64,000 nt of DNA from Rufibacter tibetensis (GTDB lineage Bacteria; Bacteroidota; Bacteroidia; Cytophagales; Hymenobacteraceae), in assembly GCF_001310085.1 (NCBI RefSeq), contig NZ_CP012643.1:4036001-4100000 (forward strand). The letters are read 5' to 3'. A program made the translations under genes and the position numbers. The notes beneath the pieces were generated by a model. It had not been told where the DNA came from and ran no database searches. It saw nothing but the letters and a program-made list of their open reading frames with translations. Shown here in pieces: positions 9,962-35,281 of the stretch; position 1 is the stretch's first letter, and the number at the start of each line of letters is the position of its first letter.

Positions 9962-11179
9962 ATGTCCCAAGATAACCGATCTGTTTTCCCACTTACCTCT
10001 GATTCTTCTCCTGAAGAAACGGCTTTCAAAATTTTTCAGGCAGCCTTGGGTGCAACTTTACCCGTGGCGCTTTGGCGATTACCTAATACCAGGGAAGCAC
10101 AAGCCTTGGTTTCTGCCGAAGTAAAGCACACCTTGCCTTCCATGGAAGGCCCACAGAGCGGATTCGCCTTTTATCCTTTTCAGTCTTCAGGAGCTGTCCC
10201 CGTTACTTTTTTACCTGCAGACTTGTACTTCTCAGGCAAGGCTGGTGTTTCCCCGCAGATAGGAGAGGCGGTACTGCCCACAAGCTTTTGGGCCGATTTC
10301 CAGAAAACGGGTCAAAAGCAAAGCAATATCCTGGAGTGGCCCAGCCACCCGGAAGGAACGGTGAAGCCCATTACCCGAGATGTGTTTGAAGTGAGCGGAG
10401 CCAAGGCAATTAAGGCCATGCAGTCCGGGTGCCTGGATAAAGTAGTATTATCCCGCACCAAAACGCTGCCTTTGTTTGAAGGCTTTGATTTGCTGCATGC
10501 CTTTACCCAACTCACCCAACTTTACCCAACAGCCTTTGTCTCCTTAGTCTCCATTCCGGGCATCGGAACCTGGTTAGGGGCAACACCCGAGTTGTTGGTG
10601 CAGGTAGACAGCTATCGGGTGTTTCGGACAGTGGCTTTGGCGGGCACCCAACCGGTTATGGAAGGTCTGACACCCGCTGATGCCATCTGGCGACAAAAAG
10701 AAATTGAGGAGCAGGCTTTGGTACAACGGTACATTGTAAGCTGCTTCCGGCACCTGCGCCTTCGGGAGTACGTGGAAATGGGACCCCGCACCATCATGGC
10801 CGGAAATTTGTTGCATCTCCGCACCGACTTCAGCGCTGCTATGGATGAAGTGGGTTTCCCAAAACTAGGTACTCAAATGCTGGAATTGCTGCACCCCACT
10901 TCAGCCGTAGGAGGAATGCCCAAAGCGGCCGCTCTGCAGATGATAGGTGAACTTGAACAACATGACCGGAGGTACTACAGCGGTTTTTTGGGTCCTGTAC
11001 AGCTGGGGCAGGAAACCAATTTATTTGTGAATCTGCGGTGCGTGGAGTTGGGTCAAGATACCGTTACCGCCTATGCCGGAGCCGGCATGACCGCTGACTC
11101 TATCCCGGCCAAAGAATGGGTTGAAACCGAACTCAAAATGCAAACCGTGCTTCGCCTTTTTCAAGCGTCTGAATCATGA
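9962..11179 (+). CDS. menF: Isochorismate synthase MenF
   Basis: 405-residue chorismate-binding enzyme. Conserved blocks include KVVLSRTKTLPL, GTWLGATPELLV, AGTQPV, and LHPTSAVGGMPKAAAL near the active site, all typical of isochorismate synthases. It turns chorismate into isochorismate, the first committed step of menaquinone synthesis. Its TGA overlaps the ATG of menD (ATGA), showing translational coupling. The N-terminal 100 residues are variable, as in other family members. Confidence 0.94.
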   Translation: MSQDNRSVFPLTSDSSPEETAFKIFQAALGATLPVALWRLPNTREAQALVSAEVKHTLPSMEGPQSGFAFYPFQSSGAVPVTFLPADLYFSGKAGVSPQIGEAVLPTSFWADFQKTGQKQSNILEWPSHPEGTVKPITRDVFEVSGAKAIKAMQSGCLDKVVLSRTKTLPLFEGFDLLHAFTQLTQLYPTAFVSLVSIPGIGTWLGATPELLVQVDSYRVFRTVALAGTQPVMEGLTPADAIWRQKEIEEQALVQRYIVSCFRHLRLREYVEMGPRTIMAGNLLHLRTDFSAAMDEVGFPKLGTQMLELLHPTSAVGGMPKAAALQMIGELEQHDRRYYSGFLGPVQLGQETNLFVNLRCVELGQDTVTAYAGAGMTADSIPAKEWVETELKMQTVLRLFQASES

Positions 11180-12888
11180 TTTTACAAGCTGTCATAGATA
11201 TTGCCGAGATCTGCGCCCGCAAGGGGGTAGAGGATATTGTGTTGTCGCCAGGTTCACGGTGTGCCCCTTTAACCTTAGCTTTTGCGAGACACCCGCAGCT
11301 GCGCGTGCGTACCGTGCCAGATGAGCGGAGTGCTGCTTTCATTGGCTTAGGAATAGCGCAGCAAACGGGCAAACCTGTAGTATTAGTTTGTACTTCCGGA
11401 ACGGCGGCGTACAACTACGCTCCGGCGGTTGCGGAAGCCTTTTACCAGAACATTCCCATGCTGGTTCTCACCGCAGACAGACCCCCTGAATGGATAGATC
11501 AGCTGGACGGACAGACCATCCGGCAATCTCATATTTATGGTGGGCACGTGAAACGGAGCTTTGACTTTCCGGTAGATACAGAGCATTCTGATGCCCAGTG
11601 GTATGCCAGCCGTTTGTTAAATGAAGCCTTGAATGAGGTGATGTCTTTTCCGGAGGGGCCGGTGCAGGTGAATATCCCGTTGCGGGAGCCGTTTTACCCG
11701 GAGCCGGGCGAGGAATTTGCGTACTCCTCAAACGTAAAGATCATAGAAGAGTTGCCTTCCGGCTTTGGATTGCCTTCAAACGTGTGGAATAACCTTAAGA
11801 AAGAGCTGCAGCAGTACAAAAGAGTGTTGGTGGTGGCTGGTCAGGGTAGAAGAAATGAACTTTTGTACTCAGCCATCCAACGTTTTTGTCAGGCAACTGG
11901 AGCTGTCTTTGTGGCAGATACCATCAGCAACCAGCAGGTGGCAGGGGAGACCATTAACTACCATGATGTTTTCCTGGGGGCAAAGCACCTGCACGAGGCT
12001 GAAAGGCTTAAACCAGATTTGTTTATTACCTTTCATAAATCGCTGATTTCTAAAAATCTGAAGTTGTTCCTGCGCAAGCAGAAAGGGTTGCAGCATTGGC
12101 ACGTGCAACAAGCCGGAATGGTAGCAGATACGTTCCAGTCCTTAACCCGAATCATCAGAACCACCCCACAGGATTTTTTTCAAAACCTAGGGCAAAATGG
12201 AGAGGGTTTGCAGGTCTCTCCAACTTTCAGCCATGCTTGGTTTGAGCTGGAAAATCAGGGTAAATCAGTTTTGGAGCGTTTTCTGAAAAACAGCTCTTTT
12301 TCAGAATTCAAGGCGTGCCATCAGGTGCTAAGAAGCCTGCCTTCCAATAGCCTCCTGCACTTGGCCAACAGCATGAGCGTGCGCTATGCCAACCTCATCG
12401 GCGTTGCTGAGATAGAAGGGGTGGAAGTATTTGCCAACCGGGGAACTAGCGGCATTGACGGAAGCACAAGTACGGCCGTTGGGTCAGCATTAAGCACTGA
12501 TAAACTTGTAACCTTGGTGACCGGCGACATGGCCTTTCTGTATGACCGGAATGCCCTTTGGCACAATTACCTCCCCAAGAACCTGCGCATTGTAGTTCTT
12601 AACAACCATGGCGGAGGAATTTTCCGGATGATTGAAGGCCCGCGCAGTCAGCCTGAGTTGCGTCCTTTCTTTGAAACCGAACAGCGGCAAACCGCCCAAA
12701 AAACAGCGGAAGACATGGGGCTGACTTATCACAGGGTTTCTGAGGAATTGGACTTGGCCGCATTGCTGCCATCATTCTTTGACCCCACGCAGGGTGCTCA
12801 GTTGATTGAAATTGAGACAGATAGCGCTGAAAACTTTGGTATTTTCTCTTCCTATAGAGAGCAGGTCGCTAAGGATATTAAGTTATAG
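11176..12888 (+). CDS. menD: MenD, SEPHCHC synthase
   Basis: 570 residues, the usual length for 2-succinyl-5-enolpyruvyl-6-hydroxy-3-cyclohexene-1-carboxylate synthase. It has the N-terminal SPGSRCAPLTLAF block, the thiamine-diphosphate Glu in CTSGTAAYNYAPAVAEAF, and the C-terminal ThDP/Mg motif GDMAFLYDRNALWHN continuing to LNNHGGGIF. It joins isochorismate and 2-oxoglutarate. The start overlaps the menF stop by four bases. The next gene begins about 100 bases further on. Confidence 0.96.
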   Translation: MILQAVIDIAEICARKGVEDIVLSPGSRCAPLTLAFARHPQLRVRTVPDERSAAFIGLGIAQQTGKPVVLVCTSGTAAYNYAPAVAEAFYQNIPMLVLTADRPPEWIDQLDGQTIRQSHIYGGHVKRSFDFPVDTEHSDAQWYASRLLNEALNEVMSFPEGPVQVNIPLREPFYPEPGEEFAYSSNVKIIEELPSGFGLPSNVWNNLKKELQQYKRVLVVAGQGRRNELLYSAIQRFCQATGAVFVADTISNQQVAGETINYHDVFLGAKHLHEAERLKPDLFITFHKSLISKNLKLFLRKQKGLQHWHVQQAGMVADTFQSLTRIIRTTPQDFFQNLGQNGEGLQVSPTFSHAWFELENQGKSVLERFLKNSSFSEFKACHQVLRSLPSNSLLHLANSMSVRYANLIGVAEIEGVEVFANRGTSGIDGSTSTAVGSALSTDKLVTLVTGDMAFLYDRNALWHNYLPKNLRIVVLNNHGGGIFRMIEGPRSQPELRPFFETEQRQTAQKTAEDMGLTYHRVSEELDLAALLPSFFDPTQGAQLIEIETDSAENFGIFSSYREQVAKDIKL

Positions 12889-12930: not shown

Positions 12931-12960
12931 TTGACTTAAGCATAAATAAGATGTAAATTC
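12931..12960 (+). promoter_or_regulatory. Probable promoter of first doxX gene
   Basis: TTG at 12931-12933 and TAAATTC at 12954-12960, spaced by 20 bases, approximate the Bacteroidota -33/-7 pair. It suggests that the doxX gene has its own promoter inside the menaquinone cluster. Confidence 0.4.
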
Positions 12961-12966
12961 ATAATG

Positions 12967-12994
12967 GAGACGCTGCTGTAAAGGCGTGAAAATC
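12967..12994 (+). promoter_or_regulatory. Conserved hairpin leader before doxX-1
   Basis: GGAGACGCTGCTGTAAAGGC followed by GTGAAAATC and the ATG at 12995. It matches the leader of the second doxX gene (13635-13662) in sequence and in distance to the ATG. ACGC/GCGT can pair around a loop containing GTAA. Confidence 0.55.
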
Positions 12995-13516
12995 ATGGAG
13001 TTTACGAAAGACGTTGAGAAATGGCATCACAAACACAGAGTGGTGCTCTATGACTACGGCCGGATAGCGTTAGGGTGCTTTCTATTATTTAAGGGGGTGC
13101 AGTTTCTTTTCAATACAACTGCTCTTGAGCAAATCCTTTTAGACAGCCAACTGTATTCCATTGCCACTTTTCTGGCTTATACTATAGCCATCATCCACGT
13201 AATTGGTGGGTTGATGATTATGGTGGGATGGCATACCCGCATTGCCTGCATTGTTCAAATTCCTATTGTGATGTGCGCAGTCTTGTTTTTCAGTCCCGCA
13301 CACGACCTGTTCTCGCTTTACTCTCCCTTCGCGGTAGCCTTGTACACCCTGGTATTTCTTTGCATTTATGTAGTGGGTGGCTCCGGCTATTATTCTTTTG
13401 ACCATAAAGCGGTCATGGAAAAGAAGCACCTACTTAAAAAGCATAAATCTCAGGGGCTAAAGGCTCGCTTGAAAAAAGAAGACCATGTAATGAACACTGG
13501 TCTTCCTCAGTTGTGA
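12995..13516 (+). CDS. DoxX-family membrane protein (paralogue 1)
   Basis: 173 residues with four predicted membrane helices and the DoxX-like pattern YDYGRIALGCFLLFKGVQF, then HVIGGLMI, QIP and GGSGYYSFDH. The start is placed at the ATG at 12995 because the second paralogue begins the same way (MExx/MNxx then YDYGRI) at identical distance from the conserved leader; a GTG nine bases upstream is inside that leader. DoxX proteins are small quinone-linked or redox-linked membrane proteins in some systems (for example thiosulfate:quinone oxidoreductase), but most have no known role. The position between menD and menB suggests a link with menaquinone. Confidence 0.85.
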   Translation: MEFTKDVEKWHHKHRVVLYDYGRIALGCFLLFKGVQFLFNTTALEQILLDSQLYSIATFLAYTIAIIHVIGGLMIMVGWHTRIACIVQIPIVMCAVLFFSPAHDLFSLYSPFAVALYTLVFLCIYVVGGSGYYSFDHKAVMEKKHLLKKHKSQGLKARLKKEDHVMNTGLPQL

Positions 13517-13634
13517 TGGTTCACTGTGGCATAATCCTATCTGCTAAGGAGGATCAATCTCCGTTATTTGACTTTTCAAATTAAGTCAAATTGCTTATCT
13601 GCTTCACCAACTATGCTTCATGTATACTTCTTTG

Positions 13635-13662
13635 GAGGCGCTACCGTAATAGCGTGACAAAT
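13635..13662 (+). promoter_or_regulatory. Conserved hairpin leader before doxX-2
   Basis: GGAGGCGCTACCGTAATAGC then GTGACAAAT and the ATG at 13663. CGCTA and TAGCG form a perfect 5-base stem around CCGTAA. Nearly the same sequence, at the same spacing, precedes the first doxX gene. Confidence 0.55.
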
Positions 13663-14130
13663 ATGAATTGGGTACAGCAAGTAGATCAGTGGCAAAATCA
13701 ACACCGCCCCGTGGCCTATGACTACGGTAGAATTATTCTGGGCCTTTTTATCCTTTACAAGGGCCTTACATTTATTGCAGACACCTCGGCATTGGCAGAG
13801 ATCATCCAGAACAGCCAATTCAAGTTTCTGGCTCTAGGGTTGGCGCACTACGTGGCCTTTGCCCACCTGGTGGGAGGAGTCCTGATTGCCATTGGGTTGA
13901 TTACCCGAGTAGCGGTTGGCTTTCAGATACCAATTTTGATTGGTGCAGTATTTTTCTTTAATCCTGGCCAAGGCTTTTTCTCTGTTAACCCTCAGTTTGC
14001 TATTTCACTAATCACGCTCATTGCCCTTATCTTTTATTTTGTAGGCGGCTCGGGTTATTACTCAGTAGATCACAGATTTGAGTCGAACGAGAAAAAACTG
14101 CAACAGAAAAAAACGGGCTTGTCCGCTTAA
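13663..14130 (+). CDS. DoxX-family membrane protein (paralogue 2)
   Basis: 155 residues, clearly paralogous to the preceding gene: both share an xxYDYGRIxLG start, a KG segment, HxxGG, QIP and a GGSGYYSxDH end. Four membrane helices are likely. Translation from a TTG at 13591 would add a 24-residue stretch that covers the conserved leader, so the ATG at 13663 is preferred. The C-terminus is shorter than paralogue 1, which has a basic tail. Tandem duplication including the leader, followed by divergence, is the simplest origin. Function unknown; possible quinone link from context. Confidence 0.85.
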   Translation: MNWVQQVDQWQNQHRPVAYDYGRIILGLFILYKGLTFIADTSALAEIIQNSQFKFLALGLAHYVAFAHLVGGVLIAIGLITRVAVGFQIPILIGAVFFFNPGQGFFSVNPQFAISLITLIALIFYFVGGSGYYSVDHRFESNEKKLQQKKTGLSA

Positions 14131-14168: not shown

Positions 14169-14229
14169 TGTAATCCTGCAAGGGCATTGTACATTTATGC
14201 CCGCAAAAGTTTCACCAAAACTGAGGTTC

Positions 14230-15054
14230 ATGCAAAGCACATTCAACTGGACAACCCTAAAAGAATACCAAGAGATACTTTTTCAATTTTATAACGGCAT
14301 TGCCAAAATAAGCATCAACCGGCCCCACGTGCACAATGCGTTCACCCCCCGCACCGTAGCCGAGATGATAGATGCCATGAACATCTGCCGTGACAATGCT
14401 GAAATTGGAGTCATCATTTTAACCGGCGAAGGCGGCAAGGCCTTCTGCTCAGGAGGTGACCAAAGCGTACGCGGACACGGGGGCTATATAGGGGAAGATA
14501 CCGTTCCTCGCCTGAACGTGCTGGACCTGCAGATGCAGATCCGCCGCATTCCTAAGCCCGTGATAGCCATGGTGGCTGGTTGGGCTATTGGTGGCGGACA
14601 CGTATTGCACGTGGTTTGTGATCTTTCCATTGCTGCAGAAAACGCCCGTTTTGGCCAAACTGGTCCTAAAGTAGGTTCCTTTGACGGAGGTTTTGGGGCA
14701 TCTTACCTGGCCCGTATAGTTGGCCAGAAAAAAGCCCGCGAGATCTGGTACCTGTGTGACCAGTACAATGCCCAGGAAGCTCTTGACATGGGCTTGGTAA
14801 ATAAAGTGGTTCCATTAGAGCAACTGGAAGAGACTACGGTAGAGTGGTGCCAGAAAATTCTGGAGAAAAGCCCTCTGGCTCTGCGCATGCTTAAAGCCTC
14901 TTTCAATGCGGAGCTAGACGGCCAGTCAGGTATCCAGCAATTGGCCGGAGATGCCACTTTGCTGTATTATCTGTCTGACGAAGCTAAGGAAGGGAAGAAT
15001 GCTTTCCTTGAGAAGCGTAAACCTGATTTCTCCAAGTACCCTAAATTCCCATGA
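14230..15054 (+). CDS. menB: MenB, 1,4-dihydroxy-2-naphthoyl-CoA synthase
   Basis: 274 residues from MQSTFNW; an upstream in-frame ATG at 14197 would add 11 residues, but the family normally starts just before the FNW segment. Crotonase fold with oxyanion-hole blocks [12 protein letters not shown] and [17 protein letters not shown], and the MenB-specific [20 protein letters not shown]. It cyclises o-succinylbenzoyl-CoA. It has its own promoter and a strong terminator, so it is transcribed separately from menF-menD. Confidence 0.95.
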
Positions 15055-15085: not shown

Positions 15086-15128
15086 AAAATGGCCTTGAAT
15101 CTTCCAAAGAGAGATTTAAGGCCATTTT
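15086..15128 (+). terminator. Intrinsic terminator after menB
   Basis: AAAATGGCCTTGAATCT and AGATTTAAGGCCATTTT form a 17-base, nearly perfect stem, 31 bases past the menB stop. Confidence 0.85.
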
Positions 15129-15220: not shown

Positions 15221-16315
15221 ATGCCTGACCACCTACTTCTGAATGGTAAGAAATTTTACTTAGATGAAATTCAGCATTATTCCTTCCGCCAAAGTATTCC
15301 ATTGGATGGTTATGAAGCCAAAACCCTGGAGTTTTGCAAGAATTGGCTACAGGGAGTACAGGAGTACCCGGTGCAGACCTCGGGTAGCACGGGTGCGCCT
15401 AAGTTGATAGAACTTAGCCGTGACCGCATGGAAGCCAGTGCGCAGCGTACGTTGCGCATCTTTGACCTTCAGCCCGAAGACAAGGTTCTGGTGTGCATGA
15501 ACACTGAGTACATTGCGGGTATGATGATGTTGGTGCGTGGGTTTGTAGGAAAGCTGCACGTGACTATCATTGAACCCATTGGCAACCCCCTGGCAAGTGT
15601 TGACCCAGAGGCAGAATTTGATTTTGTGGCCATGGTGCCGCTTCAACTGCAGACCATACTGGAGCAGACTCCTGACAAAGTTTCTAAACTGAACCAGATG
15701 AAAGCCATTCTGCTGGGCGGAGCACCCGTAGGGAAAGCATTGGAAATGGCCGTGCAGGTATTAAAGGTACCTGTTTTCCAAAGCTATGGCATGACCGAAA
15801 CCGTTTCCCACATAGCGGTACGGCGTCTTAACGGCCATGAGAAAACAGACTACTACACTGCACCCCCAGAGGTTTTTTTAGGTACAGACAGACGAGGGTG
15901 CCTTACCATCTCTGCAGACGTAACGGGCGGTGACACAATCGTGACGAATGACCTGGTAGAACTGCTGGAAAATAATTCCTTCCGGTGGTTAGGCCGCGCC
16001 GATCATACCGTAAATTCAGGCGGGGTGAAAGTGCAGTTGGAGAAAGTGGAATCCGCACTAGGAGAGGCCCTGGCAGACATGGGCATCTCACGCAGGTTCT
16101 TTGCCGCCGCATTGCCAGATGAGGCGCTAGGTGAGCGCTTGATAGCTGTTTTGGAAGGAAGTCCGCTCACTGATGTGGAAGAAACGAATTTAAAAGGAAA
16201 ACTGAGCAAGTCCCTCTCAAAATACGAAATTCCTAAACAGTTCGGCTATTTGCCCAGGTTGCCAGAAACTGCTACTGGAAAACTTGATCGTCGTAATGGA
16301 ATAACTATGATTTAA
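15221..16315 (+). CDS. menE: o-Succinylbenzoate-CoA ligase type AMP-binding enzyme (MenE)
   Basis: 364 residues, a short adenylate-forming enzyme. It has the phosphate loop TSGSTGAPKLIELS, the QSYGMTETVSHIAVR motif, the hinge Asp region RWLGRADHTVNSGGVKVQLEK and the C-terminal catalytic Lys in TATGKLDRR. The compact size and the genomic position after menB support MenE, which activates o-succinylbenzoate with CoA. menC and menA are not in the window. Separated from menB by a terminator, so probably its own transcript. Confidence 0.9.
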   Translation: MPDHLLLNGKKFYLDEIQHYSFRQSIPLDGYEAKTLEFCKNWLQGVQEYPVQTSGSTGAPKLIELSRDRMEASAQRTLRIFDLQPEDKVLVCMNTEYIAGMMMLVRGFVGKLHVTIIEPIGNPLASVDPEAEFDFVAMVPLQLQTILEQTPDKVSKLNQMKAILLGGAPVGKALEMAVQVLKVPVFQSYGMTETVSHIAVRRLNGHEKTDYYTAPPEVFLGTDRRGCLTISADVTGGDTIVTNDLVELLENNSFRWLGRADHTVNSGGVKVQLEKVESALGEALADMGISRRFFAAALPDEALGERLIAVLEGSPLTDVEETNLKGKLSKSLSKYEIPKQFGYLPRLPETATGKLDRRNGITMI

Positions 16316-35146: not shown

Positions 35147-35176
35147 TTGCGCTGAACCAAAGCCTTCGTATCTTTG
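35147..35176 (+). promoter_or_regulatory. Promoter of the SRP RNA
   Basis: TTG at 35147-35149 and TATCTTTG at 35169-35176 separated by 19 bases; this is a good Bacteroidota promoter directly before the RNA. Confidence 0.7.
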
Positions 35177-35179
35177 CAA

Positions 35180-35273
35180 CGGCAAATCGGTACGGCCAGC
35201 TCCTGCTGAACTCCCCCAGGCCCGGAAGGGAGCAAGGGTAGGTGGTTGAGCGGCGCGATACTCGGTTTGCCGC
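35180..35273 (+). ncRNA. ffs: Small signal recognition particle RNA (4.5S-like)
   Basis: The universal apical domain of bacterial SRP RNA is unmistakable: CTCCCCCAGGCCCGGAAGGG followed by AGCAAGGGTAGG. The tips of the hairpin (GGAA tetraloop region) and the asymmetric internal loop AGCA bind the Ffh M domain. The ends pair as CGGCAAA (35180-35186) with TTTGCCG (35266-35272), and eight T bases after 35273 form the terminator. Length about 94 bases, like the short SRP RNAs. Ffh is encoded in this window at 49.7 kb. Confidence 0.95.
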
Positions 35274-35281
35274 TTTTTTTT

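Follow-up and report, generated by a model that had tools for sequence, protein, structure and literature searches.

The window, that is, the whole stretch of 64,000 nt from the Rufibacter tibetensis genome that was analysed, carries two neighbouring doxX genes placed between a menD-like and a menB-like gene, in the order menF-menD-doxX1-doxX2-menB-menE. The men names are those we presume from the gene order and from general knowledge of such clusters. The DoxX1 and DoxX2 proteins share 45% identity. In window coordinates, the features of the locus are:

9962–11179, + strand, menF-like chorismate-binding enzyme (PF00425)
11176–12888, + strand, menD-like TPP enzyme (PF02776, PF16582, PF02775)
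12931–12961, + strand, putative doxX1 promoter, with TTGAC at 12931–12935 and the −10-like element TAAATTCA at 12954–12961
12966–12994, + strand, doxX1 leader (29 nt), with a putative transcription start at or near GGAG
12970–12987, + strand, predicted doxX1 leader hairpin with the arms ACGCU and GGCGU and the 8-nt loop GCUGUAAA (genus alignment A3)
12995–13516, + strand, doxX1, DoxX family membrane protein of 173 aa (PF07681, E 1.5e-10)
13623–13630, + strand, putative doxX2 −10 element TATACTTC, its TA 11 nt before GGAG
13634–13662, + strand, doxX2 leader (29 nt)
13638–13655, + strand, predicted doxX2 leader hairpin with the arms GCGCUA and UAGCGU and the 6-nt loop CCGUAA
13663–14130, + strand, doxX2, DoxX family membrane protein of 155 aa (PF07681, E 2.1e-10)
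14197–15054, + strand, menB-like enoyl-CoA hydratase family enzyme (PF00378), its start taken as the first ATG and possibly wrong
15221–16315, + strand, menE-like AMP-binding enzyme (PF00501)

The same men cluster is present in nine named loci retrieved with the DoxX alignment (Rufibacter species and Sabulibacter ruber), which form one genus group, g1, together with the window genome; the exceptions are R. immobilis, which has no doxX1, and one locus in which menF lies past the edge. Of ten aligned relatives, four do not share the menB ATG at 14197 (they have GCG, TAC and, in two cases, ACG), which is why the true menB start is probably downstream. A 17-nt inverted repeat between menB and menE (15086–15128, 94% complementary, 9-nt gap) is perhaps a terminator, and a small SRP RNA lies at 35173–35276 on the + strand (RF04183, 75.6 bits).

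Both doxX genes are preceded by a similar short leader. GGAGACGCTGCTGTAAAGGCGTGA occupies 12966–12989 (+) and is followed by AAATC and the doxX1 ATG at 12995, and GGAGGCGCTACCGTAATAGCGTGA occupies 13634–13657 (+) and is followed by CAAAT and the doxX2 ATG at 13663; the first-pass annotation, made from the sequence of this stretch, had described the same leader at a fixed spacing before both genes, and this is borne out at both sites. The doxX1 stem would consist of the pairs A12970-U12987, C-G, G-C, C-G and U-G, the doxX2 stem of G13638-U13655, C-G, G-C, C-G, U-A and A-U, and the doxX2 loop also measures 8 nt if it is counted from the shared CGCU/AGCG core. Searching the window with a consensus pattern at up to 3 mismatches returned the two leader sites only (mean 0.00 in 100 dinucleotide shuffles), which shows recurrence and not discovery, as the two copies themselves had supplied the pattern. 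A somewhat looser pattern matched two sites of the 5.4 Mb genome exactly and six more at 3 mismatches, leaving none beyond the pair at 2 mismatches or fewer; since a reversed control pattern gave eight matches, only the exact pair stands out. A pattern requiring GCGNTA had no match in the genome because both of its own copies read GCGTGA.

The first-pass annotation had made its reading depend on conservation of the motif outside this duplicated pair. We collected upstream regions from doxX homologues that were found by protein and not by leader, in 16 Rufibacter genomes, 13 of which have doxX in the men cluster. The leader is present at all 22 intact men-cluster doxX copies of these 13 genomes, with the layout purine block, CGCT (CGCA in one copy), loop, NGCG, 7–9 nt and ATG or GTG, where the first ATG was counted as the start in two copies with a doubled ATG. 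The purine block begins 27–33 nt upstream of the start codon and reads GGAGA or GGAGG next to the stem in 19 copies, GAGGA in one and TAGGG in two. Loops of 7 nt are found in 5 copies, of 8 nt in 13, of 9 nt in one, of 10 nt in two and of 12 nt in one, and GCG stands 8 nt from the start codon in 20 of the 22 copies, 7 nt from it in one and 9 nt in one. Because length changes sit in the loop and rarely between the arm and the start codon, the hairpin appears to be positioned relative to the start. The GTAA of the loop, initially described as kept, occurs at the same place in only 6 of the 22 leaders. A 23rd copy, doxX2 of Rufibacter sp. XAAS-G3-1 (L070, 2936–3437), is frame-shifted and lacks the start region but retains the hairpin arms. 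Some of the genomes contain further DoxX-like matches elsewhere, weak and distant ones, and the count of 22 covers the men-cluster copies.

In the three other Rufibacter genomes menD is directly followed by menB, with neither doxX nor leader in between. A covariance model of 39 positions built from the 22 copies (R1) was blank in two of these genomes at E 5 and gave one match at E 2.2 in the third (G060), before an OsmC-family gene. This gene was rejected as a second target, since OsmC orthologues in other Rufibacter carry no GGAG hairpin. The OsmC-family starts have a conserved leader of their own, unrelated to that of doxX: in 13 of 16 Rufibacter genomes, AAAACCG stands 8–9 nt ahead of the ATG (L111–L124). 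Across the genus R1 found just the 22 known sites below E 0.2 (150 candidates scored per genome), which says only that no others emerged among the scored candidates, as the model was built from those 22. Seven further genus matches lie at E 0.46–4.4: five fall inside frames of 279 to 585 codons that are open through the match, one has no visible gene start nearby and one is the OsmC case.

A spread across Bacteroidota, as considered at first, is not supported. R1 was run on 291 genomes of the order with strict filters and 22 candidates scored per genome, a setting in which weak or much altered relatives could be missed; four Rufibacter genomes matched below E 0.01, and the other 287 genomes gave no match below E 0.1, with 11 of them at E 0.10–0.49. 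Downstream of these 11 weak matches, within about 30 nt, no frame of at least 60 residues starts, apart from frames already open further upstream. Allowing 2 mismatches, a loose pattern matched 25 times in 59 relatives, against 28 matches of its reversed control; doxX leaders make up 7 of the 25, and the others do not exceed chance. In g2, g3 and g4, too, doxX adjoins men genes, and inspection by eye of upstream regions from four further genera of the family (18 doxX loci in g3, 8 in g4, 2 in g2 and 4 in g6) showed no such hairpin. Rfam gave no match at gathering score in the leaders of the window or of nine relatives, and relaxing the cut-off to E 10 brought no match overlapping the leaders either. 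A riboswitch is defined by a conserved aptamer of several helices or a pseudoknot, in which the pocket nucleotides are invariant. A riboswitch or known RNA family was rejected for the doxX leader, which has one stem of 4–6 bp, a loop variable in sequence and length and no Rfam match. Of the functional RNA leader proposed at first pass, the conserved element thus stands, being kept at every intact copy in the genus, while ligand sensing finds no support in a single stem with no Rfam match. Among the matches listed for literature on Rufibacter and Hymenobacteraceae leaders, DoxX and Bacteroidota leader structure, none was seen to concern the doxX leader. Judged by these sequence searches, the leader is a real, small, doxX-dedicated element that is genus-specific within what was searched, and it should be taken as local and not as a riboswitch of wide distribution.

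In a protein tree of 54 rows, the single, leader-bearing doxX of two genomes (G012 and G017) branches as the sister of a group that unites doxX1 and doxX2 from the remaining Rufibacter (support 98/83); doxX2 as one clade has weak support (65/82), and long branches call for caution. As this early-branching single-copy lineage carries the leader, the leader predates the duplication and was copied with it. Tandem duplication of doxX has apparently occurred separately in three genera, g1, g3 and g4 (L009–L020, L021–L038 and L128–L135), although long branches make the tree uncertain. In the nine genomes with both copies, the leaders of doxX1 and doxX2 have a similarity of 0.636 within a genome and 0.633 between genomes, compared with 0.715 among doxX1 leaders and 0.658 among doxX2 leaders. 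Gene conversion between doxX1 and doxX2 left no trace in these similarities and was rejected, as the value within genomes equals that between genomes; for the same reason recent copying is not the explanation of the likeness. A single tandem duplication, which the first-pass annotation had set against function, therefore accounts for how both genes came by the leader but not for their likeness today. On these comparisons, the leader is kept separately in both doxX lines after the duplication.

The bases upstream of menB are at least as conserved in the same genomes as the leader, and conservation of the leader alone is thus ordinary. It would fit an explanation by ordinary constraint only, in which the duplication passed on a transcription start and the usual adenines, and the arms pair only by coincidence. 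Against this, the likeness of the doxX1 and doxX2 leaders has outlasted the divergence of the proteins to 45% identity without gene conversion. The pairing itself gives a mixed picture. Three core stem pairs are invariant in all 22 copies; 7 copies lack pairing at the outer position and 13 at the inner, sixth one. The core pair 18-31 is UG, UA or AU and is paired in 22 of 22; the core holds one double change, in R. psychrotolerans doxX1, where the 5′ arm CGCA meets a matching 3′ arm UGCG. Two pairs are changed on both sides (shuffled mean 0.9, reached in 12 of 500 shuffles) and 6 further pair types occur (reached in 9 of 500), the paired cells amount to 84.8% versus 83.8% in shuffled alignments (160 of 500 reach it), and the covariation score is reached in 37 of 500. 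Strong covariation of the stem is not supported, as three of six pairs are invariant and the core has one double change.

Folding energies are likewise unremarkable when taken alone: compared with shuffles, z is −1.48 for the doxX1 and −1.78 for the doxX2 hairpin. The 29 nt upstream of the start fold with −7.0 kcal/mol for doxX2 and −6.2 kcal/mol for doxX1, versus a median of −1.15 kcal/mol for 48 window genes (both included), 5 of which reach −6 kcal/mol. The folds of the 22 leaders span −4.4 to −7.0 kcal/mol, which is within the shuffled range for most of them (mean shuffled fraction 0.10). The weak covariation and these energies speak for ordinary constraint. With 33 nt of coding sequence added, the stem probability exceeds 0.5 in 13 of the 22 copies; it is 0.95 for doxX2 of the window and 0.01 for doxX1, for which a longer fold hiding the AUG is preferred over the leader hairpin. 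Folds of 81 and 91 nt are of little use because they take in bases upstream of the likely start site. Taken together, a hairpin structure is likely, not proven.

We compared the leaders with what is known of translation initiation in this class. According to the available parts of the respective papers, Bacteroidia ribosomes fail to recognise Shine-Dalgarno sequences (PMC9976891), initiation in F. johnsoniae is determined by A at −3, −6, −12 and −13 with bS1 placed to touch −12 to −15 (PMC9976891, PMC6847099), and base pairing is reduced from −20 to +20 (PMC6847099). In the 22 leaders adenine is found at −6 in 22, at −3 in 19, at −14 in 21 and at −15 in 18 copies, at −12 in 6 and at −13 in 7, and positions −9, −10 and −11 are G or C in 21, 22 and 21 copies. 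For 46 other window genes, whose starts are first ATGs and hence approximate, the fractions are 0.35–0.41 for A at −3, −6, −14 and −15 and 0.37–0.43 for G or C at −9 to −11. The Kozak-like context described for F. johnsoniae and Bacteroidia (PMC6847099, in the text available) is therefore shared in the adenines of positions −3 and −6, in further adenines upstream between −12 and −15 and in the lack of a Shine-Dalgarno sequence; it differs in that the upstream adenine pair of doxX lies two bases further out, at −14/−15 and not at −12/−13, and in that a G+C stem arm occupies −9 to −12, inside the −20 to +20 stretch that is less paired than average there. The GTAA of the first-pass annotation is, from these positions, best read as this upstream adenine pair, which the stem arm displaces by two bases. 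The excess of G or C at −9 to −11 over the other window genes is hard to reconcile with ordinary constraint only, an explanation that we regard as distinctly unlikely.

A plain Shine-Dalgarno leader was rejected, as the purine block stands 27–33 nt before the start codon and not at the roughly 5–13 nt needed. The hairpin could still bring GGAG within reach of the AUG as a split Shine-Dalgarno sequence: with the hairpin looped out, about 9 nt are left to the AUG, and GGAG complements the usual 16S tail, GGATCACCTCCTTT, detected in 6 of 16 Rufibacter genomes, of which the window's own is not one. We give this arrangement hardly any credence, given the failure of Bacteroidia ribosomes to use such signals reported in the accessible text of PMC9976891. 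SD-like tetramers are absent 5–16 nt upstream of all 49 window genes, doxX included, and within 25 nt of the rpsU ATG in 16 of 16 Rufibacter genomes; moreover, 3 of the 22 leaders have TAGGG or GAGGA instead of GGAGR beside the stem. A leader peptide was also rejected: an NTG-GAG-RCG-CTN-NNN-TAA frame with an ATG or TTG start is found in some copies, but by eye its start is lost in others and the frame is broken by loops that are not 8 nt long.

Each doxX copy appears, from its upstream sequence, to have its own promoter. The TA of the −10-like element lies 12 nt before GGAG at doxX1, where TTGAC is kept in 9 of 10 aligned copies; at the position of the doxX2 −10 element most orthologues have CGTATAA, and a YGTA −10-like element lies 10–12 nt before the purine block in 19 of the 22 leaders. 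In Flavobacterium psychrophilum the sigma-A −7 box is located at −12 to −5 (PMC9723704), and the median leader length is 24 nt in this species and 32 nt in B. thetaiotaomicron (PMC9723704, PMC7366714), as given in the portions of these papers at hand. From the YGTA spacing, this −7 box and the median leader lengths we infer a transcription start at or next to GGAG and a leader of ∼29 nt. The −10-like element of the doxX leaders does not match TAnnTTTG; the menB upstream region has TACCTTTG. In other genera of the family, CGTATA precedes the first doxX in 8 of 8 g4 loci (L128–L135) and in 6 of 7 g3 loci (L021, L025, L027, L028, L030, L036 and L037). The CGTATA/YGTA element upstream of doxX may be an alternative-sigma promoter shared across genera.

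These promoter data bear on two further explanations. The conserved sequence could act in the DNA or in the initially transcribed region: GGAGRCGCT ... RGCG, at roughly +1 to +21, would then be an operator or a promoter-downstream element to which a regulator or RNA polymerase binds, and the inverted repeat would represent two half-sites. The nearly invariant arm sequence and the spacing of 10–12 nt between the purine block and the −10-like element in 19 of 22 leaders fit well with it, and the Caulobacter sigma-F regulon includes a DoxX-family gene (PMC3511200, in the part available), which makes alternative-sigma control conceivable. However, the gap between the half-sites takes values of 7, 8, 9, 10 and 12, which a rigid DNA dimer should not tolerate, and the 3′ half holds its place relative to the start codon; we consider such a DNA element possible, if rather unlikely. 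The second explanation, a 5′-terminal stem-loop that shields the mRNA from decay so that the doxX message outlives the rest of the men cluster, would suit a transcription start 4–5 nt before the stem. A start a few nucleotides before a 5′ stem is the arrangement of ompA leaders. The doxX stem has only 4–6 bp (−4.4 to −7.0 kcal/mol), though, and protection does not need a near-exact distance of 8 nt to the start codon, so that we judge this role improbable.

The explanation we prefer, and to which we give about an even chance, is a genus-specific 5′ leader with a weak hairpin that would tune translation initiation of men-cluster doxX. The mRNA would begin with a short purine overhang, followed by a small CGCU...RGCG hairpin, an 8-nt A-rich single strand and the AUG. 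The adenines at −3/−6 in the spacer and at −14/−15 on the 3′ side of the loop would serve as ribosome signals instead of a Shine-Dalgarno sequence, and the 3′ arm of the stem would occupy −9 to −12. Folding and unfolding of this weak stem would most probably tune how often the 30S subunit starts on doxX. We infer from the position and pairing of the leaders that the hairpin forms in the cell and acts on translation. In a further variant, which seems unlikely to us, the hairpin would present the upstream adenine pair to the ribosome, perhaps specifically to bS1, and fix the spacing of this pair from the AUG, with the structure helping or gating initiation and not just hindering it; a DoxX-linked redox factor or another protein might act as the switch.

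Small hairpins near the start codon are known as translational operators, for example the coat-protein operators of phages. The doxX hairpin resembles these in its size and its fixed distance from the AUG; its loop, in contrast, is conserved neither in sequence nor in length. Structured 5′ regions, including the Flavo-1 motif, have been described for Flavobacterium psychrophilum (PMC9723704, as far as its available text goes) and are similar in being structured leaders of Bacteroidota mRNAs, whereas the doxX leader is a single short stem that matches no Rfam family and belongs to one genus and one gene family. The doxX leaders provide an example of an element that is older than a tandem duplication and kept in both copies. 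With paralogous neighbours carrying the same leader, natural loop-length variants and one natural arm swap, they offer a compact natural system for asking how upstream adenines and structure together determine translation in Bacteroidota, whose initiation dispenses with Shine-Dalgarno sequences.
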